Shown here: positions 28,419-47,071 of the stretch, in pieces
How the letters are laid out: each line of letters begins with the position of its first letter
Numbering within the stretch: position 1 is the stretch's first letter
DNA from: Bacteroidota bacterium
GTDB lineage: Bacteria > Bacteroidota > Ignavibacteria > Ignavibacteriales > Melioribacteraceae
DNA length: 50,196 nt
NCBI GenBank assembly: GCA_018818165.1
Contig: JAHISP010000003.1
Span: forward strand, 1-50,196
Direction: 5' to 3'
Notes under the pieces: generated by a model
Database searches by the model: none
What the model was told of the DNA's origin: nothing
The model's input: the letters and a program-made list of their open reading frames with translations, nothing else
Program-made: the position numbers and the translations under genes

Positions 28419-30293
28419 TTATAAAAATGTAACTGTAAAACTACTTCCAACCCCTTTCGTTGATTCTACTTCAATAGTTGCATTATTTAGATTACAATAT
28501 TGCTTAACTAAAGCTAAACCAAGACCATTACCTTCATAATTTCGCGTATAACCTTGATTTTCCTGTGTAAAAGCGTTAAATATTCGTGATAAATTTTCAG
28601 TAGCAATTCCAATTCCAGTATCAGTAACTTTTACTGCTAAACAGCCAAGTTCATTATTATAACAGTTAATATTAATTTCGCCAACATTAGTGTACTTAAT
28701 TGCATTTTCAATGAGATTATCAAAAATTTGCATAACTGAATAATGATCAATAGGCACGATTGTTTCATTTGTTGATTTGGAAAGATTTATTTTAATTCCC
28801 TTTATGCTAGAACTATTATATTTTTCCAATAAAATTACTTCAAGTACATCTGTATAAATATCAGTATTAACTTTGTTTATTTGATAAGAACCCGTTTGCA
28901 AGTCAGTCATATTTAATATTAAATCGACTGTTCTAATTATTCTATCGCTCGCATTTTCAGCCCCTTTTAAGCATCTTGAAATATCTTCACTAAGCTTACT
29001 AGAATCTATATCTGAAAGGATGAGTTGATGGGAAGAAAGCAAAGTATTTAAAGGAGTTCTAATTTCATGAGACATTTGAGCTAAAAATTCTGACTTAAGC
29101 AAATTAGCAGCTTCTGCTTCTTTTTTAGCAATTATTAATTCACTAAAAATTTCTTTACGTTTTGTAATATTTATTTTTGTAATTAAATAACGAAATGTTA
29201 CATTATTTTTATCAACAATTGGAGTAATTGTAACATCTTCCCAATACAACTGTTTATTTTTAGTTTTATTATAAAACTCACCACTCCAGATGCCATAAAT
29301 TTTAACATCATTCCATATTTTCTGATACTGATCATCATCCAATTCGGAAGCAATAAGGTTTTTTAAGTCAATTCCATTTAGCTCTTCTTCAGAATAACCA
29401 GTTCTTTCTAAAAGCATATTATTAAAGTATACAACTTTTCTATCAAGGTCAGTAATAATTAAGACTATTGGACTTTGGTTACTTGCTTTTGACAGAATAG
29501 CTAATTTTTCTTGTAATTCATTTTGTTGAGTAATGTCTCGAACAAATCCGACTATAATTGATTCATTGTTAGGTGCTTTAAGAATGGTTGTTTTAATAGA
29601 ACCGATTAGAAAACCACCATCTTTTTTTAATATTTTTACTTGAAATTCACCATTTGAAATTCCTTTAAGAAATTCATTAAACTTATCAATAGCTAAATCA
29701 ACTGAATCAGAATGGATATAATTTAGAAAATAAGTGCCAATAATTTCCTCTTTACTCCAACCAGAAATTTTAGAAGTAGCTTGATTGCAGTTAATAACAT
29801 TTCCTTCTTTAGAAAGAGTAACAATCATATCGGCAGCATTTTCAACTAAAAGTCTATAATTTTCTTCAGTCTGATCTGCTTTTTCTTGAATAAGTTTTTT
29901 TGCATTTCTGTTTTTGGCTTCAACCAATTCCCGAATAATTGCAGGTGCTAAACGGCTTAAATTATCTTTCATCACATAATCATTAACACCAGCTTTCATG
30001 GCACTAACTGCAATTTCTTCACCCATTGTTCCAGAAACTAAAATGAAAGGAATGTCAATATTATATTCTTTAAATACTTCAAATGCTTTTAATCCATTAT
30101 AGGTGGGTAATGAATAATCAGACAAAATAATATCCCATTTACTATTTTCGAGCGCCTCTCGAAACTCCTTTTCTGTATCTACACGCTTAGAAACTATTGA
30201 AAGACCATTGCGCTTTAGATTTCTTAAAATTATAAAAAGATCGTCTTCCAAATCTTCAAGAGCTAATAATTTTATTTCTTGTTCAATTTTCAT
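28419..30293 (-). CDS. Receiver-PAS-PAS histidine kinase
   Basis: 624 residues, no membrane segment, so cytosolic. Order: N-terminal receiver (about 8-125) with acidic pair Glu13/Asp14 and phospho-acceptor Asp59 in ILSDYSLP, though the switch position reads VSGTMG and the conserved Lys is in VMKDN; PAS domains about 145-260 (NYRLLVENAADMIVTLSKEG) and 265-385 (LSKASNQSPIVLIITDLDR); HisKA with His409 in QMSHEIRTPLNTL; HATPase with NLIENAIKYTN, DTGIGIA and GNGLGLALV. All kinase boxes look intact. It is the last gene of the TonB receptor/YfiR/kinase operon and could accept phosphate from the upstream kinase on its receiver, which is inference. Confidence 0.92.
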   Translation of the reverse strand: MKIEQEIKLLALEDLEDDLFIILRNLKRNGLSIVSKRVDTEKEFREALENSKWDIILSDYSLPTYNGLKAFEVFKEYNIDIPFILVSGTMGEEIAVSAMKAGVNDYVMKDNLSRLAPAIIRELVEAKNRNAKKLIQEKADQTEENYRLLVENAADMIVTLSKEGNVINCNQATSKISGWSKEEIIGTYFLNYIHSDSVDLAIDKFNEFLKGISNGEFQVKILKKDGGFLIGSIKTTILKAPNNESIIVGFVRDITQQNELQEKLAILSKASNQSPIVLIITDLDRKVVYFNNMLLERTGYSEEELNGIDLKNLIASELDDDQYQKIWNDVKIYGIWSGEFYNKTKNKQLYWEDVTITPIVDKNNVTFRYLITKINITKRKEIFSELIIAKKEAEAANLLKSEFLAQMSHEIRTPLNTLLSSHQLILSDIDSSKLSEDISRCLKGAENASDRIIRTVDLILNMTDLQTGSYQINKVNTDIYTDVLEVILLEKYNSSSIKGIKINLSKSTNETIVPIDHYSVMQIFDNLIENAIKYTNVGEININCYNNELGCLAVKVTDTGIGIATENLSRIFNAFTQENQGYTRNYEGNGLGLALVKQYCNLNNATIEVESTKGVGSSFTVTFL

Positions 30294-30326
30294 TTCTTCC
30301 TAACAAACTTTTTTTTAACAATAAAC

Positions 30327-32585
30327 TTACAAATTAAAATCAGGAGAATCACTAAGTGTGAAAAAGAAAGTTGCACCTTCATCTATTTTGCCATCTGCCC
30401 AAATTTTTCCACCGTGTTTTTTAATAATTCTATTTACTGTAGCTAAACCAATACCACTTCCCTCAAAATCTTTTGTAGAGTGAATTCTCTGAAATGCGCC
30501 GAACAATTTATTTACATATTTCATATTAAACCCAGCGCCATTATCTTTTACAAAGAACACAACATTTTCAATACCAAATTTCTCCTTTGATTCCAAAGCA
30601 CTGAAACTGCCAAATTCAATAGTTGGATTTTTAATTTTTGAAGTAAATTTAATTGCATTAGAAAACAAATTTGTAATAGCAATTCTCATTAAACTAGGAT
30701 CAGCAACAACATTATAATTGCAGTTAACAATAAATTCTACGTTATTAAATGGCAAGCTATCGTTAAAAGAATTAATAACACTATTAACTATTTCTTCTAT
30801 TTTGAAGTTTTCTAAAACAATTTTTTCTTGAGATAATTTAGAAAGTTTAAGTAAATCGTCAATTAAATGGTTCATTGCTACAGTATGATTTATAACTTTA
30901 AGCAAATGTGTCTTTCCATCATCATCAAGATTCTCCATATTATCTTCTAGAATAATCTTGCTAAATTCTCTAATTCCTCTTAATGGAGCTCGTAAATCGT
31001 GTGAAACAGAATATGAAAAAGCTTCCAATTCTCTATTGGCAAATTCTAATTCAGCAGTTCTTTTATTTACTCTGTTTTCCAAATCTGCATTAAGTTCTTT
31101 TATGTCTTTCTCAGCCTTTTTTAAGTTAGTAATATCAAGAAAAGAAAAAAGGATATAACCTTGTCCGTCAACTTCAAAATCCAATTGCATTAAATCCAAA
31201 ATTACGGTAATAATTTTATTGTCTTTTCTAACCCATTCTATTTCATTATGGCTAAACCCATTTTTTGCAATTTCGTCAACAGCAATTTCACTAAACCTTA
31301 AAAAATCCAATTCACTTTTATAAATTATACTTGAATCTTTGCCAACTAATTCTTCTCTGGAATATCCTATCAGTTCACATGCTTTATTATTTATTTCAAT
31401 AATATTTCTGTTTGATAATAATCCAACACCAACTTGAAGAATATCGAAAATCTTCTGAAGTTTAGTCTCACTTTTCTGTAATCTATCATTTGCTTTTATA
31501 ATTTCAGTTATATCGCGAACTGTTGAAAGGATTATTTCATTATCCGAAAGTAATATCTTTTTCAAGTTTACTTGAACAATAAATTCTTCCCCAGTTTTTG
31601 GTTTTTGGGCAATCCAATTAAACTCTTGTGGATAATTGTTAACAACATTACTCCATATTTTTTCAAAAGAAGCAAAATTATTATTTTTTGATGAAAATTC
31701 TTTTTCAAATGATAGAGTTAAAGCTTCATTACGAGCAATTGAATACATTTGCGACATAGTTTCGTTAACATCCATAATGTCTTTATTTAAATTATGGATA
31801 AATATTGCATCGTGACTACTATTAAATATTTCCCTAAAGTTTTTTTCACTTACTTTTAACGAACTTATTGCAGCATCTCTTTCCATTCTTCTAGAATTAA
31901 TATTGCTTAACATAATATTTAAGCTATCATATAGTTTTCCTATTTCATCTTGTCCCAGTTTTTGAAGTTGTACGTCATATGAATCATTTTTTGTTATTTG
32001 CCCAGCTTTTTCAACTAAATTTTCAATAGGAATAATTAGATTTCCGGCAAATTTCTCTCCTACATAAATGGCTAATGCCAAAATTAGTATTGCGATAAAA
32101 GTGGTGCCTAATAGAAAATCGAAAACTTTTGCTTTTAGTTCCTCAGTGGAAGTTACTATTGAAATTGTACCATAAACAATTCCATTACTTTTAATAATGT
32201 GATAATAGTAGAAATTTTCATTTTCAAAATAGCTCACATTTTCATTCTTATATAAAACTTCCTTTTTACTAAAATTATCTTTTGAATATTCTGAGAATAT
32301 TCCACCATTTTTTGTAAAGATAGTTATTTGCAAAAAATTTGCATTTTTACCAATAAAAGAAATACTATTTGTGGATACATCGGGTGAATTAAACATTATA
32401 TCTGCAACACTTATATCTGAAATAATTTTTGCTGAAAGTGAGACTTTATTATATAACTCATTTTTATAAAATTTACTTCCATTAAGTAGAATTAGTGAAA
32501 TTGCAAGAATAAGAGGAATAAAAACCGAGAAAAATATTATTACAATTATTTTATATTTTAACGAAATATCTGCATATTTTTTCAT
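30327..32585 (-). CDS. Membrane histidine kinase with CHASE8-like sensor, HAMP and PAS domains
   Basis: 752 residues. Two membrane helices (about 12-33 and 150-170) bound a periplasmic domain of roughly 115 residues whose wording (SAKIISDISVADIMFNSP, then a TIFTKNGGIFSEYSK strand) resembles CHASE8, the sensor of the diguanylate cyclase YfiN. After the second helix come a HAMP (about 172-225; NLIIPIENLVEKAGQI), PAS domains (about 245-365 and 370-490), HisKA with His529 in SYSVSHDLRAPLRGI and an intact HATPase (NLFSNAIKFTSK, DNGAGFNMKYV, GSGIGLATV) of the phytochrome-like class. Its ATG overlaps the stop of the YfiR-family gene (ATGA), so the two are translationally coupled. The CHASE8 call is by eye and is less certain than the kinase call. 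Confidence 0.88.
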   Translation of the reverse strand: MKKYADISLKYKIIVIIFFSVFIPLILAISLILLNGSKFYKNELYNKVSLSAKIISDISVADIMFNSPDVSTNSISFIGKNANFLQITIFTKNGGIFSEYSKDNFSKKEVLYKNENVSYFENENFYYYHIIKSNGIVYGTISIVTSTEELKAKVFDFLLGTTFIAILILALAIYVGEKFAGNLIIPIENLVEKAGQITKNDSYDVQLQKLGQDEIGKLYDSLNIMLSNINSRRMERDAAISSLKVSEKNFREIFNSSHDAIFIHNLNKDIMDVNETMSQMYSIARNEALTLSFEKEFSSKNNNFASFEKIWSNVVNNYPQEFNWIAQKPKTGEEFIVQVNLKKILLSDNEIILSTVRDITEIIKANDRLQKSETKLQKIFDILQVGVGLLSNRNIIEINNKACELIGYSREELVGKDSSIIYKSELDFLRFSEIAVDEIAKNGFSHNEIEWVRKDNKIITVILDLMQLDFEVDGQGYILFSFLDITNLKKAEKDIKELNADLENRVNKRTAELEFANRELEAFSYSVSHDLRAPLRGIREFSKIILEDNMENLDDDGKTHLLKVINHTVAMNHLIDDLLKLSKLSQEKIVLENFKIEEIVNSVINSFNDSLPFNNVEFIVNCNYNVVADPSLMRIAITNLFSNAIKFTSKIKNPTIEFGSFSALESKEKFGIENVVFFVKDNGAGFNMKYVNKLFGAFQRIHSTKDFEGSGIGLATVNRIIKKHGGKIWADGKIDEGATFFFTLSDSPDFNL

Positions 32586-40706: not shown

Positions 40707-41153
40707 GTGCCAAGAAATCCTAAAGATTATTATCCACCAATGAATAGTGCAGAACATATACTTAATCAAACAATGATTAGAATGTTCAATACGGAGAGAT
40801 CATTTTCTAATCATATTGAAAGGAAAAAATCTAAATGCGATTATCATTTTAATCGAAATTTGTTAGATGAAGAATTGCAAAATCTTGAGAATGAGATAAA
40901 TTTAATAATTAATCAACATTTGGATGTTACTGAATCGACCATTGAAATTGAAAAAGCTAAAATAAAATTTAATTTAGATAGGTTGCCTGAAAATCATGAT
41001 AATGAAATTAGAGTTATAAATATTGGCAATTATGATTCTTGTCCATGTTCTGGTGAGCATGTTAACAATACAAAAGAAATAGGAAAGGTTAAAATTTTAT
41101 CTTCTTCCTTCGAAAATGGTGTATTAAGAATAAGATTTAAATTACTAGACTAA
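40707..41153 (+). CDS. AlaX-like stand-alone tRNA-editing (SAD) domain protein
   Basis: 148 residues. The start is GTG with AGGA six bases upstream. The N-terminal NSAEHILNQTMIRMF corresponds to the HxxxH metal motif of the AlaRS/ThrRS second additional domain, with Asn in place of the first His. The C-terminal block IGNYDSCPCSGEHVNNTKEIGKVKI carries the matching Cys-x(3)-His motif (CSGEH) and the family's ThrEIG-like segment; the final FENGVLRIRFKLLD is also typical. Such free domains hydrolyse mischarged aminoacyl-tRNA; the charge edited here is unknown. It lies eight bases after a lipoprotein gene. Confidence 0.75.
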   Translation: MPRNPKDYYPPMNSAEHILNQTMIRMFNTERSFSNHIERKKSKCDYHFNRNLLDEELQNLENEINLIINQHLDVTESTIEIEKAKIKFNLDRLPENHDNEIRVINIGNYDSCPCSGEHVNNTKEIGKVKILSSSFENGVLRIRFKLLD

Positions 41154-41259: not shown

Positions 41260-43626
41260 ATGGCAAACAACTCAAAAATTGAAACTCTTAATTTGTTTAA
41301 TCAGTTACTAACTTCTGCTATTTCTGGTGCAACAGATTTTCCAGATAATTTATGTAACTATATTACAAATGAATTTGATTTTCAAGCGATAATTATATTT
41401 GAGCATATTGAATCCAAAGGATTAAAAGTATTTGGGAAATCACTAAATGCAAGAAAAAATTATCTTCATGGTTCAGAATTTACATGTTCTCATTGTAAAT
41501 TAAATAACGATGTGAACGATTTTTCGATGCATCATGATTCAAATTGTGAGTTGCAAATTTCGGAATTTGTAATTTATGAGAGTTGTGCAAGTTTTAATAT
41601 TCAACTTGGTAAAAGAGGTTTTTTGAAAGTTGCAAAGAAAACTCCTTTTACTCAAATTGATTCCGACACATTAAGGAGTGCTTCAAAATACATTGCTACT
41701 TTAATAAAAATGTGGGATATAGCATCTGGAAAATCAACCAAAGTTAGTGAAAAATCGCTTGGAACTTTATTTTTAGAAGTAACTAATGAACTACGGACAT
41801 ATGCAAACTCAATACTTGGTTCAACATCCATTTTAGCCGAAGATAATTTATCAGTTTCGCAGACAGAATATGTTACTACAATTAAAAAGAATGCACAATC
41901 TCTTGTAACAAATCTTAAAGACTCAATTGATATAGCAAAACTTGAAGAAGATGCTCCAAATTATTCCAAAAATATTAATCTTACAACATTAATTGAACAA
42001 GTGGTTGATGGAATAAGGGGTAAATCTGCGCATTCATTATTAACAATAAATTTTAATATTGATTCAAATGTTCCTTCTGAGGTGAATCTAGACGATATAC
42101 GTTTAAAATATATTCTAAACTCTCTTCTTTACTTTTTGATAGTTTCATCAAATGATAAATCTGCTTCTTTAAAAGTTACTTCACTTTCTGATGATAAACT
42201 TCAATTTATAATTCAAAATAGTAACTCGCAATTGGATAAAGATATTTTGAAATCAATTTTTGATCCTTTTGTTGTTTCTAAAAAACTAGCATTAGTTGAA
42301 AATGGTTTTACTGGACTTAGTTTAACTCTAGCTCAAAGATATATTTCATCGCTAAATGGTGAAATAAATGCTAAACATAATTCCTATGATGGAATTACTT
42401 TTAATTTTACATTAAAAGCAGATCAGCATAAAGCACCAAGTCAAATTGATTTTTCTAAGCTTCCAAAACCAACTAAAGAGAGAAATAGCATTTTAGTTGT
42501 TGAGGATGATTATGCTACATCAAAACTTTTGAGCAATTACTTAAATAAATGGGGTTATACTCCAACTATTGTAAACACTGGCGAACAAACCTTATCGCAA
42601 ATTAGTAAGGAGAAATTTCTAGCTGTAATTCTTGATATTGAAATACCTTCTGTAAATGGATTGGAATTACTAAAGAAAATTCGTGAACATAAAAACGCTA
42701 AAAATGTGCCGGTAATTGTCTGTTCTGTTGAACCAGATGAACAAAAAGCATATTTAATGGGTGCTGTAGAATATTTTGTAAAACCAATAAATTACAACTA
42801 TTTGGTTGAAGTTCTAACAAGTTATAAATTAAGAAAAAATTCCAATATTCTGTGTATTGATGATGACATTCCTACTCTTAACCTTGTTAAGCAAGCAATT
42901 GAAACTGCAGGTTTTATTGCCATTGCTGAAAGTGTTTCTGCAAATGTTATGGATAGAATTAAAGATCTGCAAATTGATTTGGCTATTGTTGACCTTGATA
43001 TGCCACCTCCAAATGGATTTGAATTAATTAAATTGATTAAATCTGATCCAAAATTTACAAAACTTCCTATCATAATTTACACCGGCAAAGAGAATTTTGA
43101 TGAAGACTTAAAAAGCATTGATGGACTTTTTGAAGACCTATTAAGTAAAAAAAGTGTAAACATTGAGGATCTTTCTGATACAATTAGCTCAATGTTAAAT
43201 AGATATGAAGAACCAACACCTTTTGAAGAAGTTATTGAAAAATCTGATGATGAAATTAAAATATTATTTGCTGAGGATTATAAACATTCACAAATTATTG
43301 TAACTCGCCTACTTAAGAAAAATGGTTTCGAAAATGTTGTAGTTGTTGATAATGGCGAAGAGGCTCTGAATAATGCAAAAATTGACCAGTTCGATTTAAT
43401 TCTTATGGACATGCAAATGCCAATAATGAATGGATTTGAAGCAACCTCTCATATTCGTGAACTTTCTAATTACCAAGATACTCCAATAATTGCGCTAACA
43501 GCATTTGCAATGAAAGGCGATAGAGAAAAATGTCTTGATGCTGGTGCAACAGATTATATTCCAAAACCAATTGATAGCAAAGAGTTTATTGAAAAAGTAA
43601 AATATTATTTGAACGCAACTAAATAG
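41260..43626 (+). CDS. Histidine-kinase-like pseudokinase with three receiver domains
   Basis: 788 residues from the ATG at 41260; an in-frame TTG at 41209 falls in a promoter-like element and is rejected. Order: N-terminal GAF-like domain (about 5-150) with a Cys/His group (TCSHCKL, MHHDSNC); a HisKA-like helical pair (about 168-235) in which the phospho-His position reads TNELRTY, Asn176; an ATPase-like domain (about 245-400) whose N box (ILNSLLYFLI) and G1 box (IIQNSNSQLD) are eroded and only GFTGLSL recalls G2; then three receivers. Their phospho-acceptor Asp residues are in VILDIEIPS, AIVDLDMPP and ILMDMQMPI; the second has a degenerate C-terminal half. Cytosolic. A clear terminator follows. 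Confidence 0.88.
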   Translation: MANNSKIETLNLFNQLLTSAISGATDFPDNLCNYITNEFDFQAIIIFEHIESKGLKVFGKSLNARKNYLHGSEFTCSHCKLNNDVNDFSMHHDSNCELQISEFVIYESCASFNIQLGKRGFLKVAKKTPFTQIDSDTLRSASKYIATLIKMWDIASGKSTKVSEKSLGTLFLEVTNELRTYANSILGSTSILAEDNLSVSQTEYVTTIKKNAQSLVTNLKDSIDIAKLEEDAPNYSKNINLTTLIEQVVDGIRGKSAHSLLTINFNIDSNVPSEVNLDDIRLKYILNSLLYFLIVSSNDKSASLKVTSLSDDKLQFIIQNSNSQLDKDILKSIFDPFVVSKKLALVENGFTGLSLTLAQRYISSLNGEINAKHNSYDGITFNFTLKADQHKAPSQIDFSKLPKPTKERNSILVVEDDYATSKLLSNYLNKWGYTPTIVNTGEQTLSQISKEKFLAVILDIEIPSVNGLELLKKIREHKNAKNVPVIVCSVEPDEQKAYLMGAVEYFVKPINYNYLVEVLTSYKLRKNSNILCIDDDIPTLNLVKQAIETAGFIAIAESVSANVMDRIKDLQIDLAIVDLDMPPPNGFELIKLIKSDPKFTKLPIIIYTGKENFDEDLKSIDGLFEDLLSKKSVNIEDLSDTISSMLNRYEEPTPFEEVIEKSDDEIKILFAEDYKHSQIIVTRLLKKNGFENVVVVDNGEEALNNAKIDQFDLILMDMQMPIMNGFEATSHIRELSNYQDTPIIALTAFAMKGDREKCLDAGATDYIPKPIDSKEFIEKVKYYLNATK

Positions 43627-43632
43627 ATTTTT

Positions 43633-43661
43633 GCAGTGGTTGTATAGTTTACAACCACTGC
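43633..43661 (+). terminator. Intrinsic terminator of the multi-receiver gene
   Basis: GCAGTGGTTGTA (43633-43644) and TACAACCACTGC (43650-43661) form a perfect 12-bp stem with a five-base loop, seven bases after the stop. The T-run is short (ATTATTT), so efficiency may be moderate. Confidence 0.75.
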
Positions 43662-43777
43662 ATTATTTAAAAAACTCTTTAATTAACTCACCAAATATTT
43701 TTCAGTCTCATATTTTATTTTACTAACTTTACAATCTGATTTTTTAGAAAATAAGTTTGTAATAATTTTGAGATAAA

Positions 43778-45256
43778 ATGATTAATAAAACACCCCGAGT
43801 TCGCTTTGCTCCTAGTCCAACTGGATATTTACATGTTGGTGGTTTGCGAACTGCACTTTATAATTATCTTTTTGCAAAAAAAAATGGCGGCAAGTTTATA
43901 CTCCGAATTGAGGATACTGACCAAAATAGATTTGTTGAAGGTGCAGTTGAAAATTTAATTGAGACCCTAAATTGGGTTGGGTTGGAATATGACGAAGGAC
44001 CTAATAAAGAAGGAAATGTTGGTCCATATTTCCAATCGCAAAGATTGGATATTTACAAAAAATATGCTGATCAACTTGTGGAGCAAGACAATGCCTACAG
44101 ATGTTTCTGTTCACCAGAAAGACTGGCGGATTTGAAAGAGCAGCAGCAAAAAGCAAAACTTCCTCAAGCAAAATATGATAAACATTGTCTGCATCTTTCA
44201 AAGGAAGAAATTAAAAATAATATAGATGCAGGTATATCGCATGTTATTCGTTTAAATGTTAAAGCTGGTGAAAGTGTTGTAATAAATGATATTGTTCGCG
44301 ATAGAGTAGAATTTTCACGCGAAGTTATAGACGATCAAATTTTAATTAAAACAGATGGATATCCTACTTACCACATGGCAAATGTTGTTGACGACCATTT
44401 AATGGGCATCACACACGTTATACGTGGCGAGGAATGGTTATCATCAACCCCTAAGCATATTTTGCTTTACAACGCATTTGGATGGGAAATACCAATATTT
44501 GCTCACCTTCCCCTTTTGCTTAATGCCGATAGATCAAAACTTAGCAAGCGTCAAGGAGATGTTGCTGTTGAAGATTACAAATCGAAAGGATATTTGAAAG
44601 AAGCACTAATTAATTTTGTTGCCCTTCTTGGTTGGAGCACTACTGAAAACGATGAATTTTTTAATTTGAACGATTTAATTGAAAAATTCACTTTAGAAAG
44701 AGTTCACAAAGCTGGTGCAATTTTTAATGTTGAAAAACTTGATTGGATTAATGCAGAACATTTGAGAAAACTGGAAAAATCAGCTATTCTTAAAATGCTT
44801 AGAGAAAATCTTGCAGAATCAAAATACAAAGATTTAAATTACACTGATGAATACTTACTCTTGGTTATTGCAGCAATGCTTGAGCGAGTTTCATTTGTAA
44901 AAGATTATATTGATAATTCCCCCTATTTCTTTGAGCGTCCCACTACTTATGATGAAGAAGTAATTAAAAAACGCTGGAAAGAAGATTCTGTTCAATTACT
45001 TGAAAAATATATTATTAAAATTTCGCATTTAGAAAATCCAAAAAAAGAAGATTTTGAAATTGCACTAAAACAAGTAGCCGAAGAAGCAGAATGTGGTGCA
45101 GGAAGAATAATTCATCCACTCCGTGTTGCAACCTCTGGAAGTGGAATTGGACCTGGAGTTTATGATTTGCTTTTCATTCTTGGAAAAGATGAAGTTATTG
45201 CAAGAATTAATAATTCTTTAGAAGTAATTCCAGAAATTAAAGCAAAACTTGGTTAA
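43778..45256 (+). CDS. gltX: Glutamyl-tRNA synthetase
   Basis: 492 residues, class I aminoacyl-tRNA synthetase. The nucleotide-binding HIGH-type motif is SPTGYLHVGGLRTALYN, the KMSKS motif is KLSKRQGD, and LRIEDTDQNR is conserved. A zinc-binding insertion is suggested by YRCFCSPERL and the downstream KHCLHL. The C-terminal half is the all-helical anticodon-binding domain of bacterial GluRS with GRIIHPLRVATSGSGIGPG. It charges tRNA-Glu. A dedicated GlnRS gene follows 132 bases downstream, so GluRS need not misacylate tRNA-Gln here. Confidence 0.97.
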   Translation: MINKTPRVRFAPSPTGYLHVGGLRTALYNYLFAKKNGGKFILRIEDTDQNRFVEGAVENLIETLNWVGLEYDEGPNKEGNVGPYFQSQRLDIYKKYADQLVEQDNAYRCFCSPERLADLKEQQQKAKLPQAKYDKHCLHLSKEEIKNNIDAGISHVIRLNVKAGESVVINDIVRDRVEFSREVIDDQILIKTDGYPTYHMANVVDDHLMGITHVIRGEEWLSSTPKHILLYNAFGWEIPIFAHLPLLLNADRSKLSKRQGDVAVEDYKSKGYLKEALINFVALLGWSTTENDEFFNLNDLIEKFTLERVHKAGAIFNVEKLDWINAEHLRKLEKSAILKMLRENLAESKYKDLNYTDEYLLLVIAAMLERVSFVKDYIDNSPYFFERPTTYDEEVIKKRWKEDSVQLLEKYIIKISHLENPKKEDFEIALKQVAEEAECGAGRIIHPLRVATSGSGIGPGVYDLLFILGKDEVIARINNSLEVIPEIKAKLG

Positions 45257-45388: not shown

Positions 45389-47071
45389 ATGATTGAAAAT
45401 ACCGAAAATAAAATGCCACCGAATTTTATTAAAGAAATTATTGATGAAGATTTAAAAAATAATAGATATACAAAAGTTCACACTCGCTTTCCTCCCGAGC
45501 CAAATGGTTATTTGCATATTGGGCACGCAAAATCTATTTGTTTAAACTTTGGTTTAGCAAAAGAATATGCCGGCTTAACTAATCTTAGATTTGATGATAC
45601 AAATCCAACAAAAGAGGATGTTGAATATGTTGACTCAATTAAAGAAGATGTTAAATGGCTAGGCTTCGATTGGGAAGACAGACTTTATTTTGCTTCTGAT
45701 TATTTTGACACGCTATATGAATATGCAATAAAACTTATTAAAAAAGGTAAAGCTTATGTCGATTCTTCCCCTTTTGAACAAATAAAAGAAGAACGAGGTG
45801 CGCCAACCAAACCTGGAGTTGAATCAAAATATCGCTCAAGGACAATTGAAGAGAATCTTGAATTATTTCAAAAAATGAAAGCTGGTGAATTTGAAGATGG
45901 TGTTCATGTGCTTCGTGCAAACATTGATATGACTTCGCCAAATATGAATTTACGCGACCCTATTTTATATAGGATTAGACATGCAGAACATCATCGCACT
46001 GGTAATAAATGGTGCATATATCCAATGTACGATTGGGCTCACGGTCAGTCCGATTCAATTGAAGGAATTACTCATTCAATTTGTACGTTGGAATTTGAAA
46101 ACCATCGTCCCCTTTATGATTGGTTTGTTGAACAATTAGAAATTCATCATCCTCGCCAAATTGAGTTTGCTCGTTTAAATTTAAATTATACAATTATGAG
46201 TAAGCGTAAATTACTTCGTCTTGTTGAAGAAAAACATGTTTCTGGTTGGGATGATCCTCGTATGCCTACCATTTCGGGATTACGCAGACGTGGTTACACT
46301 CCAGAATCTATTCGTAATTTTGCCGATAGAATTGGTGTTGCAAAGCGCGATAATGTTATTGACCTTTCTCAATTGGAATTTAGCATTCGTGAGGATTTAA
46401 ATAAACGAGCAATGCGCGTTATGGCTGTATTGAATCCTATAAAAGTTGAACTTCTCAATTATCCAGAAAATGAAGTTGAGCAATTAGATGCAATAAATAA
46501 TCCTGAAGATGAATCAATGGGAAGTCGCAAACTACCTTTCTCACGGGAATTATTTATTGATGCAGATGATTTTCAAGAAGTTCCTCATAAAAAATTTCAC
46601 CGTCTTTCGCCTGGAAATGAAGTTAGACTTCGATATGCTTACATTATAAAATGTAAAGAAGTAGTTAAAGACGCTAATGGAAATATTGAAAAACTGCTTT
46701 GTACTTTTGATATTGATACAAAAAGTGGTACTGGAACTAGTGATAAAAAAGTAAAAGGGACAATTCATTGGGTCTCTGCTAAACATGCAGTTAATATAGA
46801 AGTTCGTCTTTATGATAGACTTTTTAATGTTTCAGCTCCTGATAGTGAAAAAAATATTGATTTTATTGAACATATAAATCCAAATTCACTTGCAGTACTT
46901 AAAAATAGTATGGCTGAGCCATTTCTTAAAAATGCAAAACCTGGTGAGCGTTTCCAGTTTGAACGACTCGGTTATTATTGCGTTGATAGTAAAGATTCTT
47001 CCGAAAATAAATTAGTTTTTAACAGAACTGTAACTTTAAGAGATTCATGGGCAAAAATTGAAAACCAATAA
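45389..47071 (+). CDS. glnS: Glutaminyl-tRNA synthetase
   Basis: 560 residues, the usual bacterial GlnRS length. Class I catalytic motifs: HIGH-type in [17 protein letters not shown] and KMSKS-type in [46 protein letters not shown] and [19 protein letters not shown] are GlnRS-specific. A C-terminal two-barrel anticodon-binding domain follows ([54 protein letters not shown]). It charges tRNA-Gln directly, so the transamidation route is not required for Gln. A ribosome site AAGGA is nine bases upstream. Confidence 0.98.

Follow-up and report, generated by a model that had tools for sequence, protein, structure and literature searches.

The window, by which we mean the whole analyzed stretch of DNA of 50,196 nucleotides, encodes a relative of the hybrid histidine kinases that retains one of eight kinase residues and three receivers with complete catalytic residues (Table 1). 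It is well supported by the alignments that the protein could not start a phosphorelay. Its best reading, which we consider somewhat probable, is that of a non-catalytic hub resembling RetS and DivL, whose receivers would be phosphorylated in trans. The gene is usually present in a single copy and is spread across the whole order Ignavibacteriales, and the loss of kinase residues extends through all orthologues that were scored.

Table 1. Features of the pseudo-histidine kinase gene and its surroundings (positions in the window).
Feature	Position	Strand	Remarks
Pseudo-histidine kinase gene	41260..43626	+	788 aa from ATG; GAF-fold - HisKA - HATPase - REC - REC - REC
N-terminal GAF-fold domain, aa 1-158	41260..41733	+	AlphaFold model and structure alignment; no Pfam GAF match by sequence
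Four conserved Cys codons	41485..41586	+	C76 41485-41487, C79 41494-41496, C96 41545-41547, C109 41584-41586
HisKA (DHp) domain, aa 166-235	41755..41964	+	phospho-acceptor lost
Asn176 codon AAT, at the phospho-accepting His site	41785..41787	+	
Degenerate HATPase domain, aa 236-390	41965..42429	+	
Eroded N box, aa 282-298	42103..42153	+	essential Asn column is Phe292
Eroded G1 box, aa 316-326	42205..42237	+	NSNSQ vs DxGxG
Eroded G2/ATP-lid stretch, aa 346-358	42295..42333	+	GFTGLSL vs GGTGLGL
Receiver 1 (REC1)	42484..42825	+	acceptor D459, codon 42634-42636
Receiver 2 (REC2)	42838..43194	+	acceptor D578, codon 42991-42993
Receiver 3 (REC3), most conserved part	43258..43614	+	acceptor D717, codon 43408-43410
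Intrinsic-terminator-like hairpin 3' of the gene	43632..43662	+	13 pairs; 1 observed vs 0.7 expected in shuffles (weak by count)
gltX, usual downstream neighbor	43778..45256	+	named by eye from translation

Loss of the Kinase Residues

Pfam recognizes the kinase core of the window protein in part: HisKA, at 20.9 bits, misses its gathering score of 26.9, and HATPase_c, at 31.0 bits, exceeds its own of 26.4. A preliminary description of this DNA had located the phospho-His site of the H box (TNELRTY, residues 175-181) at Asn176 and had called the N and G1 boxes eroded, and both observations hold. Among the eight kinase residues considered (His, N-box Asn, G1 Asp and two Gly, and three G2 Gly), Gly352 alone is left. 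The earlier argument that this is no sequencing slip is strengthened as well, since Asn176 is present in all five examined genomes of the genus, which makes such a slip very unlikely.

To place these losses in the family, 112 distinct orthologues (at least 450 bits, with rows of identical last 300 residues merged) were aligned with five relatives from outside the order (f13, L155-L159) and five paralogues (PAR), both described below. The His column was read in 108 rows (four have a gap, and L053 aligns doubtfully there) and the kinase residues were scored in the 110 rows with at least five of the eight columns filled. Orthologues keep between zero and six of the eight residues and none keeps all of them, against 10 of 10 comparison proteins with the full set. 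Orthologues with a His and an intact ATPase domain, which would have spoken against the reading as a pseudokinase, were looked for and none was found. With the catalytic residues gone throughout the examined orthologues, the proposal that the protein could not start a phosphorelay is well supported.

His is kept at its column in 19 of the 108 orthologues (L032 and L079 are examples) and lost in 89. The column holds N 32, Q 21, H 19, S 9, L 5, D 4 and P 3 times, E, M, F, A, G and T twice each, and K, V and R once each; Tyr does not occur among the 108. Asn176 is therefore conserved within the genus (five of five) but not across the orthologues, where the fifteen different non-His residues indicate that Asn is one resting state, common to the genus. 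Read from this alignment, Asn176 itself is incidental and no specific replacement of His. The column ranks 19th in variability among the 70 HisKA columns, as expected of a site without a special role left, and on a tree of the receivers it required at least 7 changes between His and non-His and 39 changes of residue. These counts are approximate, as the tree was built by a quick method, leaves 36 of its 113 inner branches open and has an outgroup branch of 4.9 changes per column.

The 19 orthologues with a His are probably dead kinases too. Gly350 of the ATP lid is absent from all 109 orthologues with a residue at that column, and no orthologue combines His176, Asn292 and Gly350. In the tree, 17 of these 19 fall in the region closest to the outgroup. 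This suggests a loss of ATP handling before that of the His, which, once idle, would have drifted to Asn or Gln through one-base substitutions and to other residues as well. The very long branch on which the tree is rooted makes this order of loss tentative.

The degenerate core is still under selection, as judged from substitution rates, although more weakly than the receivers. Within the genus dN/dS was 0.02-0.03 in the receivers and 0.10-0.14 in the rest of the protein; dS was 1.15-1.65, near saturation, so that these values are used for the contrast between domains only. Several residues around the former His persist in the 89 orthologues that lack it, namely E177 (69), L178 (69), R179 (67), N183 (83), I185 (81) and G187 (79), as a kept docking or dimer face would give.

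Conservation of the Receivers

Pfam Response_reg finds three stretches in the window protein, all of them strong. The acidic pair, the acceptor Asp, the Ser/Thr and the Lys are present in each (15 of 15 positions), and this goes beyond the preliminary description, which had vouched for the acceptors of the first and third receivers at least. The catalytic quintet is intact in 99 of 111 orthologues for REC1, in 112 of 112 for REC2 and in 110 of 111 for REC3, and on the approximate receiver tree the acceptor Asp required at least four, zero and one changes, respectively. Seven of the orthologues (L020, L045, L046, L048, L050, L051 and L078) have Asn in place of the REC1 acceptor Asp, and in these the quintets of REC2 and REC3 are intact.

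The protein encoded by the downstream gltX gene served as a yardstick in 89 genomes (3916 pairs). Median pair identity was 0.80 for REC3, 0.70 for REC1, 0.67 for REC2 and 0.66 for GltX, followed by 0.43 for HisKA, 0.31 for the N-terminal domain and 0.30 for HATPase. REC3 was more conserved than GltX in 3904 of the 3916 pairs (12 exceptions), REC1 in 2738 and REC2 in 2397; the HATPase domain exceeded GltX in 4 of 3828. A stretch of REC3, EDYKHSQIIVTRLLK (residues 672-686), is invariant in all 51 sequences of a second alignment (A2). By these sequence comparisons the receivers are under strong constraint. Such conservation is evidence of function, not of phosphorylation.

The N-Terminal Domain

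The N-terminal 160 or so residues adopt a GAF fold in their predicted model. The AlphaFold model of the domain has a pLDDT of 88.8, and VIA-align superimposes it on the GAF domain 3ci6_A with a Z of 12.5 (rmsd 3.9, 147 aligned). The Pfam GAF family matched neither the whole window protein nor the 40 members of a third alignment (A3), and no other Pfam family matched this region convincingly. A predicted model of the full-length protein had a pTM of 0.37, too low to fix the arrangement of the domains.

The domain has four conserved cysteines (C76, C79, C96 and C109). The full set is found in 91 of 107 orthologues and is partly or wholly missing in 16. The same four columns hold one Cys in total (in the outgroup row L159) in the five outgroup and five paralogue rows. 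Invariance of the cysteines in A3 is a selected property, as this alignment comprises 40 of the 51 rows of A2 and leaves out several odd N-termini. The domain is likely a sensor, and by analogy it is a fair guess that the four Cys hold a putative metal or Fe-S site. An Fe-S cluster is described in the sensor region of the staphylococcal kinases AirS and NreB in the accessible part of PMC8774646. These two are active kinases, and the window protein is likened to them by its four Cys alone.

Distribution and Gene Neighborhood

The window belongs to a genome assembly of 4.9 Mb in 105 contigs. Matches to the protein at E <= 1e-60 were found in 149 of 164 genomes of the order, and in 103 of the 109 with a completeness of 90% or more and a contamination of 5% or less. 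Stygiobacter electus 09-Me, a cultivated member, carries an orthologue (L113). The nearest named records among the matches listed are metagenome-assembled genomes of Melioribacteraceae and other Ignavibacteriales. When named genomes were scanned, an identity of at least 42% in the best segment was seen for 78 of the 80 loci among the matches listed; the remaining two, from a planctomycete and a Flavobacterium, have 26-28%. In a class sample of 294 genomes, the matches outside the order at E <= 1e-60 were the five f13 proteins, with 30-32% identity.

The usual downstream neighbor, on the same strand, is gltX: it occurs there in 96 of 112 loci, at a distance of up to 260 bp in 91 of them and of 0.5-3.2 kb in five. 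Of the other 16 loci, 14 have at least 400 bp of sequence on that side without it, and two have less than 400 bp of sequence there. In none of the f13 loci fetched is gltX beside the gene. Given the terminator-like hairpin between the gene and gltX in the window, we take the two to share a location, not a function.

The genes for glutamyl- and glutaminyl-tRNA synthetase stand in tandem downstream (43778-45256 and 45389-47071, named by eye from translations). Upstream, at 40707-41153, a 148-aa protein with a tRNA_SAD domain resembles a stand-alone alanyl-tRNA editing protein, and a relative of it is upstream of the pseudokinase gene in 10 of 113 loci. Two adjacent sensor kinases are encoded about 9 kb away on the minus strand (28419-32585). 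The first has the layout REC-PAS-PAS-HisKA-HATPase, and the second starts with CHASE8 (sub-threshold)-HAMP-PAS-PAS.

Relatives and Origin of the Protein

The f13 proteins (about 1065 aa) share about 30% identity with the window protein over the core and three receivers and have all eight kinase residues intact. In the two of five that were scanned, PAS precedes the core and Hpt follows the receivers, both above the Pfam cut-offs, whereas the window protein ends after REC3. PAR is a second, widespread hybrid kinase of about 1150-1200 aa (L187-L216; the copy of the window genome, L213, is at G000:C61:36465-39920). Of 42 matches, 35 reach the C-terminal receivers; 30 were fetched, and for 27 of these a scored pseudokinase was available as a counterpart. 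The PAR kinase has all eight residues in each of the five proteins in which all eight were scored, and His with the N-box Asn in 30 of 30. In 22 of the 30 proteins, the first two receivers together are left with 1-6 of their 10 catalytic residues. The third receiver (REC3) is complete in all 30, and Pfam detects one receiver in the copy of the window genome. Of 55 genomes, 13 gave no PAR match at E <= 1e-100, and the pseudokinase is present in 12 of these 13.

Because the f13 proteins resemble PAR (36-38% over the PAR core and receivers) more than the window protein (30-32%), it is probable that a three-receiver hybrid kinase underwent duplication. After the duplication PAR probably kept the kinase and the window gene the receivers, if we infer correctly from these identities. 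The complementary decay of PAR and of the pseudokinase is suggestive. Its degrees correlate (Spearman 0.65, n=27), but the correlation is confounded by kinship. A tree-aware test of this decay had three independent pairs, too few, and in these the kinase score almost never differed.

The preliminary description had added two possible roles, the collection of phosphate from other kinases and that of a scaffold. Both would fit the conserved receivers but are inferred, and a search among HPt proteins and PAR identified no donor. PAR is not claimed as a donor, given the kinship-confounded correlation and the genomes without a match, and it is kept as a rival explanation. Among the HPt proteins, a REC-HPt form of about 240 aa is found repeatedly in the order (L175-L186). 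It lies beside motA-, motB-, csrA- or fliW-like genes in 11 of the 12 copies read, all but L178 (genes named by eye). In the window genome three HPt matches were found, all within larger frames of 614-779 aa, with no REC-HPt frame of about 240 aa among them, and the REC-HPt protein is therefore unconvincing as a partner.

Comparison with Known Systems

Solved kinase cores that match the model include that of RetS (6dk7_E, TM 0.75 to the target, 24% identity). The match to RetS says little about mechanism, since the best Foldseek E-value belongs to ShkA (6qrj) and ZraS is matched equally well. RetS has a membrane sensor, and the window protein differs from it in having the four-Cys GAF-fold domain at its N-terminus. 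DivL, unlike the window protein, is not known to carry receivers. With its H box lost and its receivers present, the window protein is filed under neither.

RetS of Pseudomonas aeruginosa is the closest precedent for the hub proposed below. The likeness, as far as the accessible text of PMC5992135 covers it, lies in a degenerate HATPase domain without G boxes, a HisKA core and receivers with an acceptor Asp, and REC2 of RetS takes phosphoryl groups from GacS. RetS differs in keeping its H box (HExxT) and in having two receivers, compared with NELRT and three receivers in the window protein (PMC5992135). In DivL of Caulobacter crescentus the phospho-His is replaced, the protein is neither a kinase nor a phosphatase, and the core binds a receiver protein, according to the accessible text of PMC4211667. 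The Tyr at this site of DivL is important for function (same text), in contrast to the drifting residue of the present family, which is Asn in the window. PhyK and PhyP of the alphaproteobacterial general stress response have a kinase fold without autokinase activity, and the CA domain of PhyP is degenerate (PMC5964349, in extract). PhyK needs its His (same extract), which is mostly gone in the family described here. Finally, in a laboratory-selected ChrS pseudokinase the dead kinase acts through an intact paralogue, as given in the accessible sections of PMC9491836.

Proposed Function and Alternative Explanations

As a non-catalytic hub, the protein would be a relative of hybrid histidine kinases that has lost catalysis and presumably forms a dimer. 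Its GAF-fold domain would sense a signal, possibly the redox state or iron, through the metal or Fe-S site of the four Cys. The HisKA/HATPase part would neither use ATP nor take phosphate and may serve dimerization and docking. The three receivers would be the working parts. They would be charged by at least one other kinase or phosphotransfer protein and would act as a sink, store the phosphate or pass it on, as tuned by the GAF domain. Against this reading count the negative donor search, the loss of the REC1 quintet in 12 of 111 orthologues and the 19 orthologues that keep their His. A more specific version, which we consider rather unlikely, makes the protein a core regulator of the whole order, in which the dead core would do no more than couple the receivers mechanically to a metal sensor built on the cysteines. 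All three receivers would then be phosphorylated in trans by conserved partners of their own, and metal or redox state would gate the sharing of phosphate from several kinases.

Instead of collecting phosphate, the protein could remove it: the E-x-x-T/N half of the HExxT motif in the DHp domain would strip phosphate from a receiver of a partner or of the protein itself, with the receivers setting the state. The window protein reads NELRT, and E/D177 with T/N180 is present in 74 of 108 orthologues and in 56 of the 89 without His. RetS, with its degenerate HATPase, has a transmitter phosphatase activity that needs its Thr, but it retains the whole motif including the His (both from the accessible text of PMC5992135). 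In the present family 34 of 108 orthologues, and 33 of the 89 without His, lack part of the motif, which is thus not conserved as enzyme residues should be. From these sequences a phosphatase role appears possible but less likely than the hub, and we consider it unlikely. The receivers might also bind partners without being phosphorylated in the cell. The invariant REC3 stretch of the 51 A2 sequences looks like a protein-protein face, and the REC1 acceptor or another residue of its quintet is lost in 12 of 111 orthologues. The quintets of REC2 and REC3 are nevertheless kept in 222 of 223 rows. Unphosphorylated receivers should drift as the kinase residues do, which these two do not, and a phosphorylation-independent scaffold is therefore quite improbable in our view.

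Phosphate could also be supplied within a heterodimer with an intact kinase such as PAR, the work of an ancestral three-receiver kinase being divided between the two proteins. The retained kinase residues of PAR, the degradation of its first two receivers next to an intact REC3, and the correlated degrees of decay all point in this direction. The correlation is confounded by kinship, however, with three independent pairs only, and the 13 of 55 genomes without a PAR match also speak against such a split kinase, to which we give little credence. That the gene is a product of sequencing error or a decaying pseudogene has a negligible probability. An in-frame stop is present in the match of G004, G016, G026, G075 and G247, and in L072 near its end, but the other listed matches of the order are without a stop, dN/dS is 0.02-0.14 in all domains, and Asn176 is identical in the five genomes of the genus.

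Significance of the Protein Family

Few pseudo-histidine kinases have been studied, and here one can be traced through a whole order. In the literature consulted on the taxon, on pseudokinases, on RetS and on AirS we found no account of this protein family; most subscription papers were outside the scope of that search, and we do not claim that an account is absent. The family shows a fold that outlasts its enzyme, with a drifting phospho-His column and receivers constrained about as strongly as a tRNA synthetase or more so. It also forms a natural series, from members with a His and partial boxes to members with almost nothing left, which lets the remaining use of the dead core be probed. The family points to an uncharacterized signaling hub in Ignavibacteriales.
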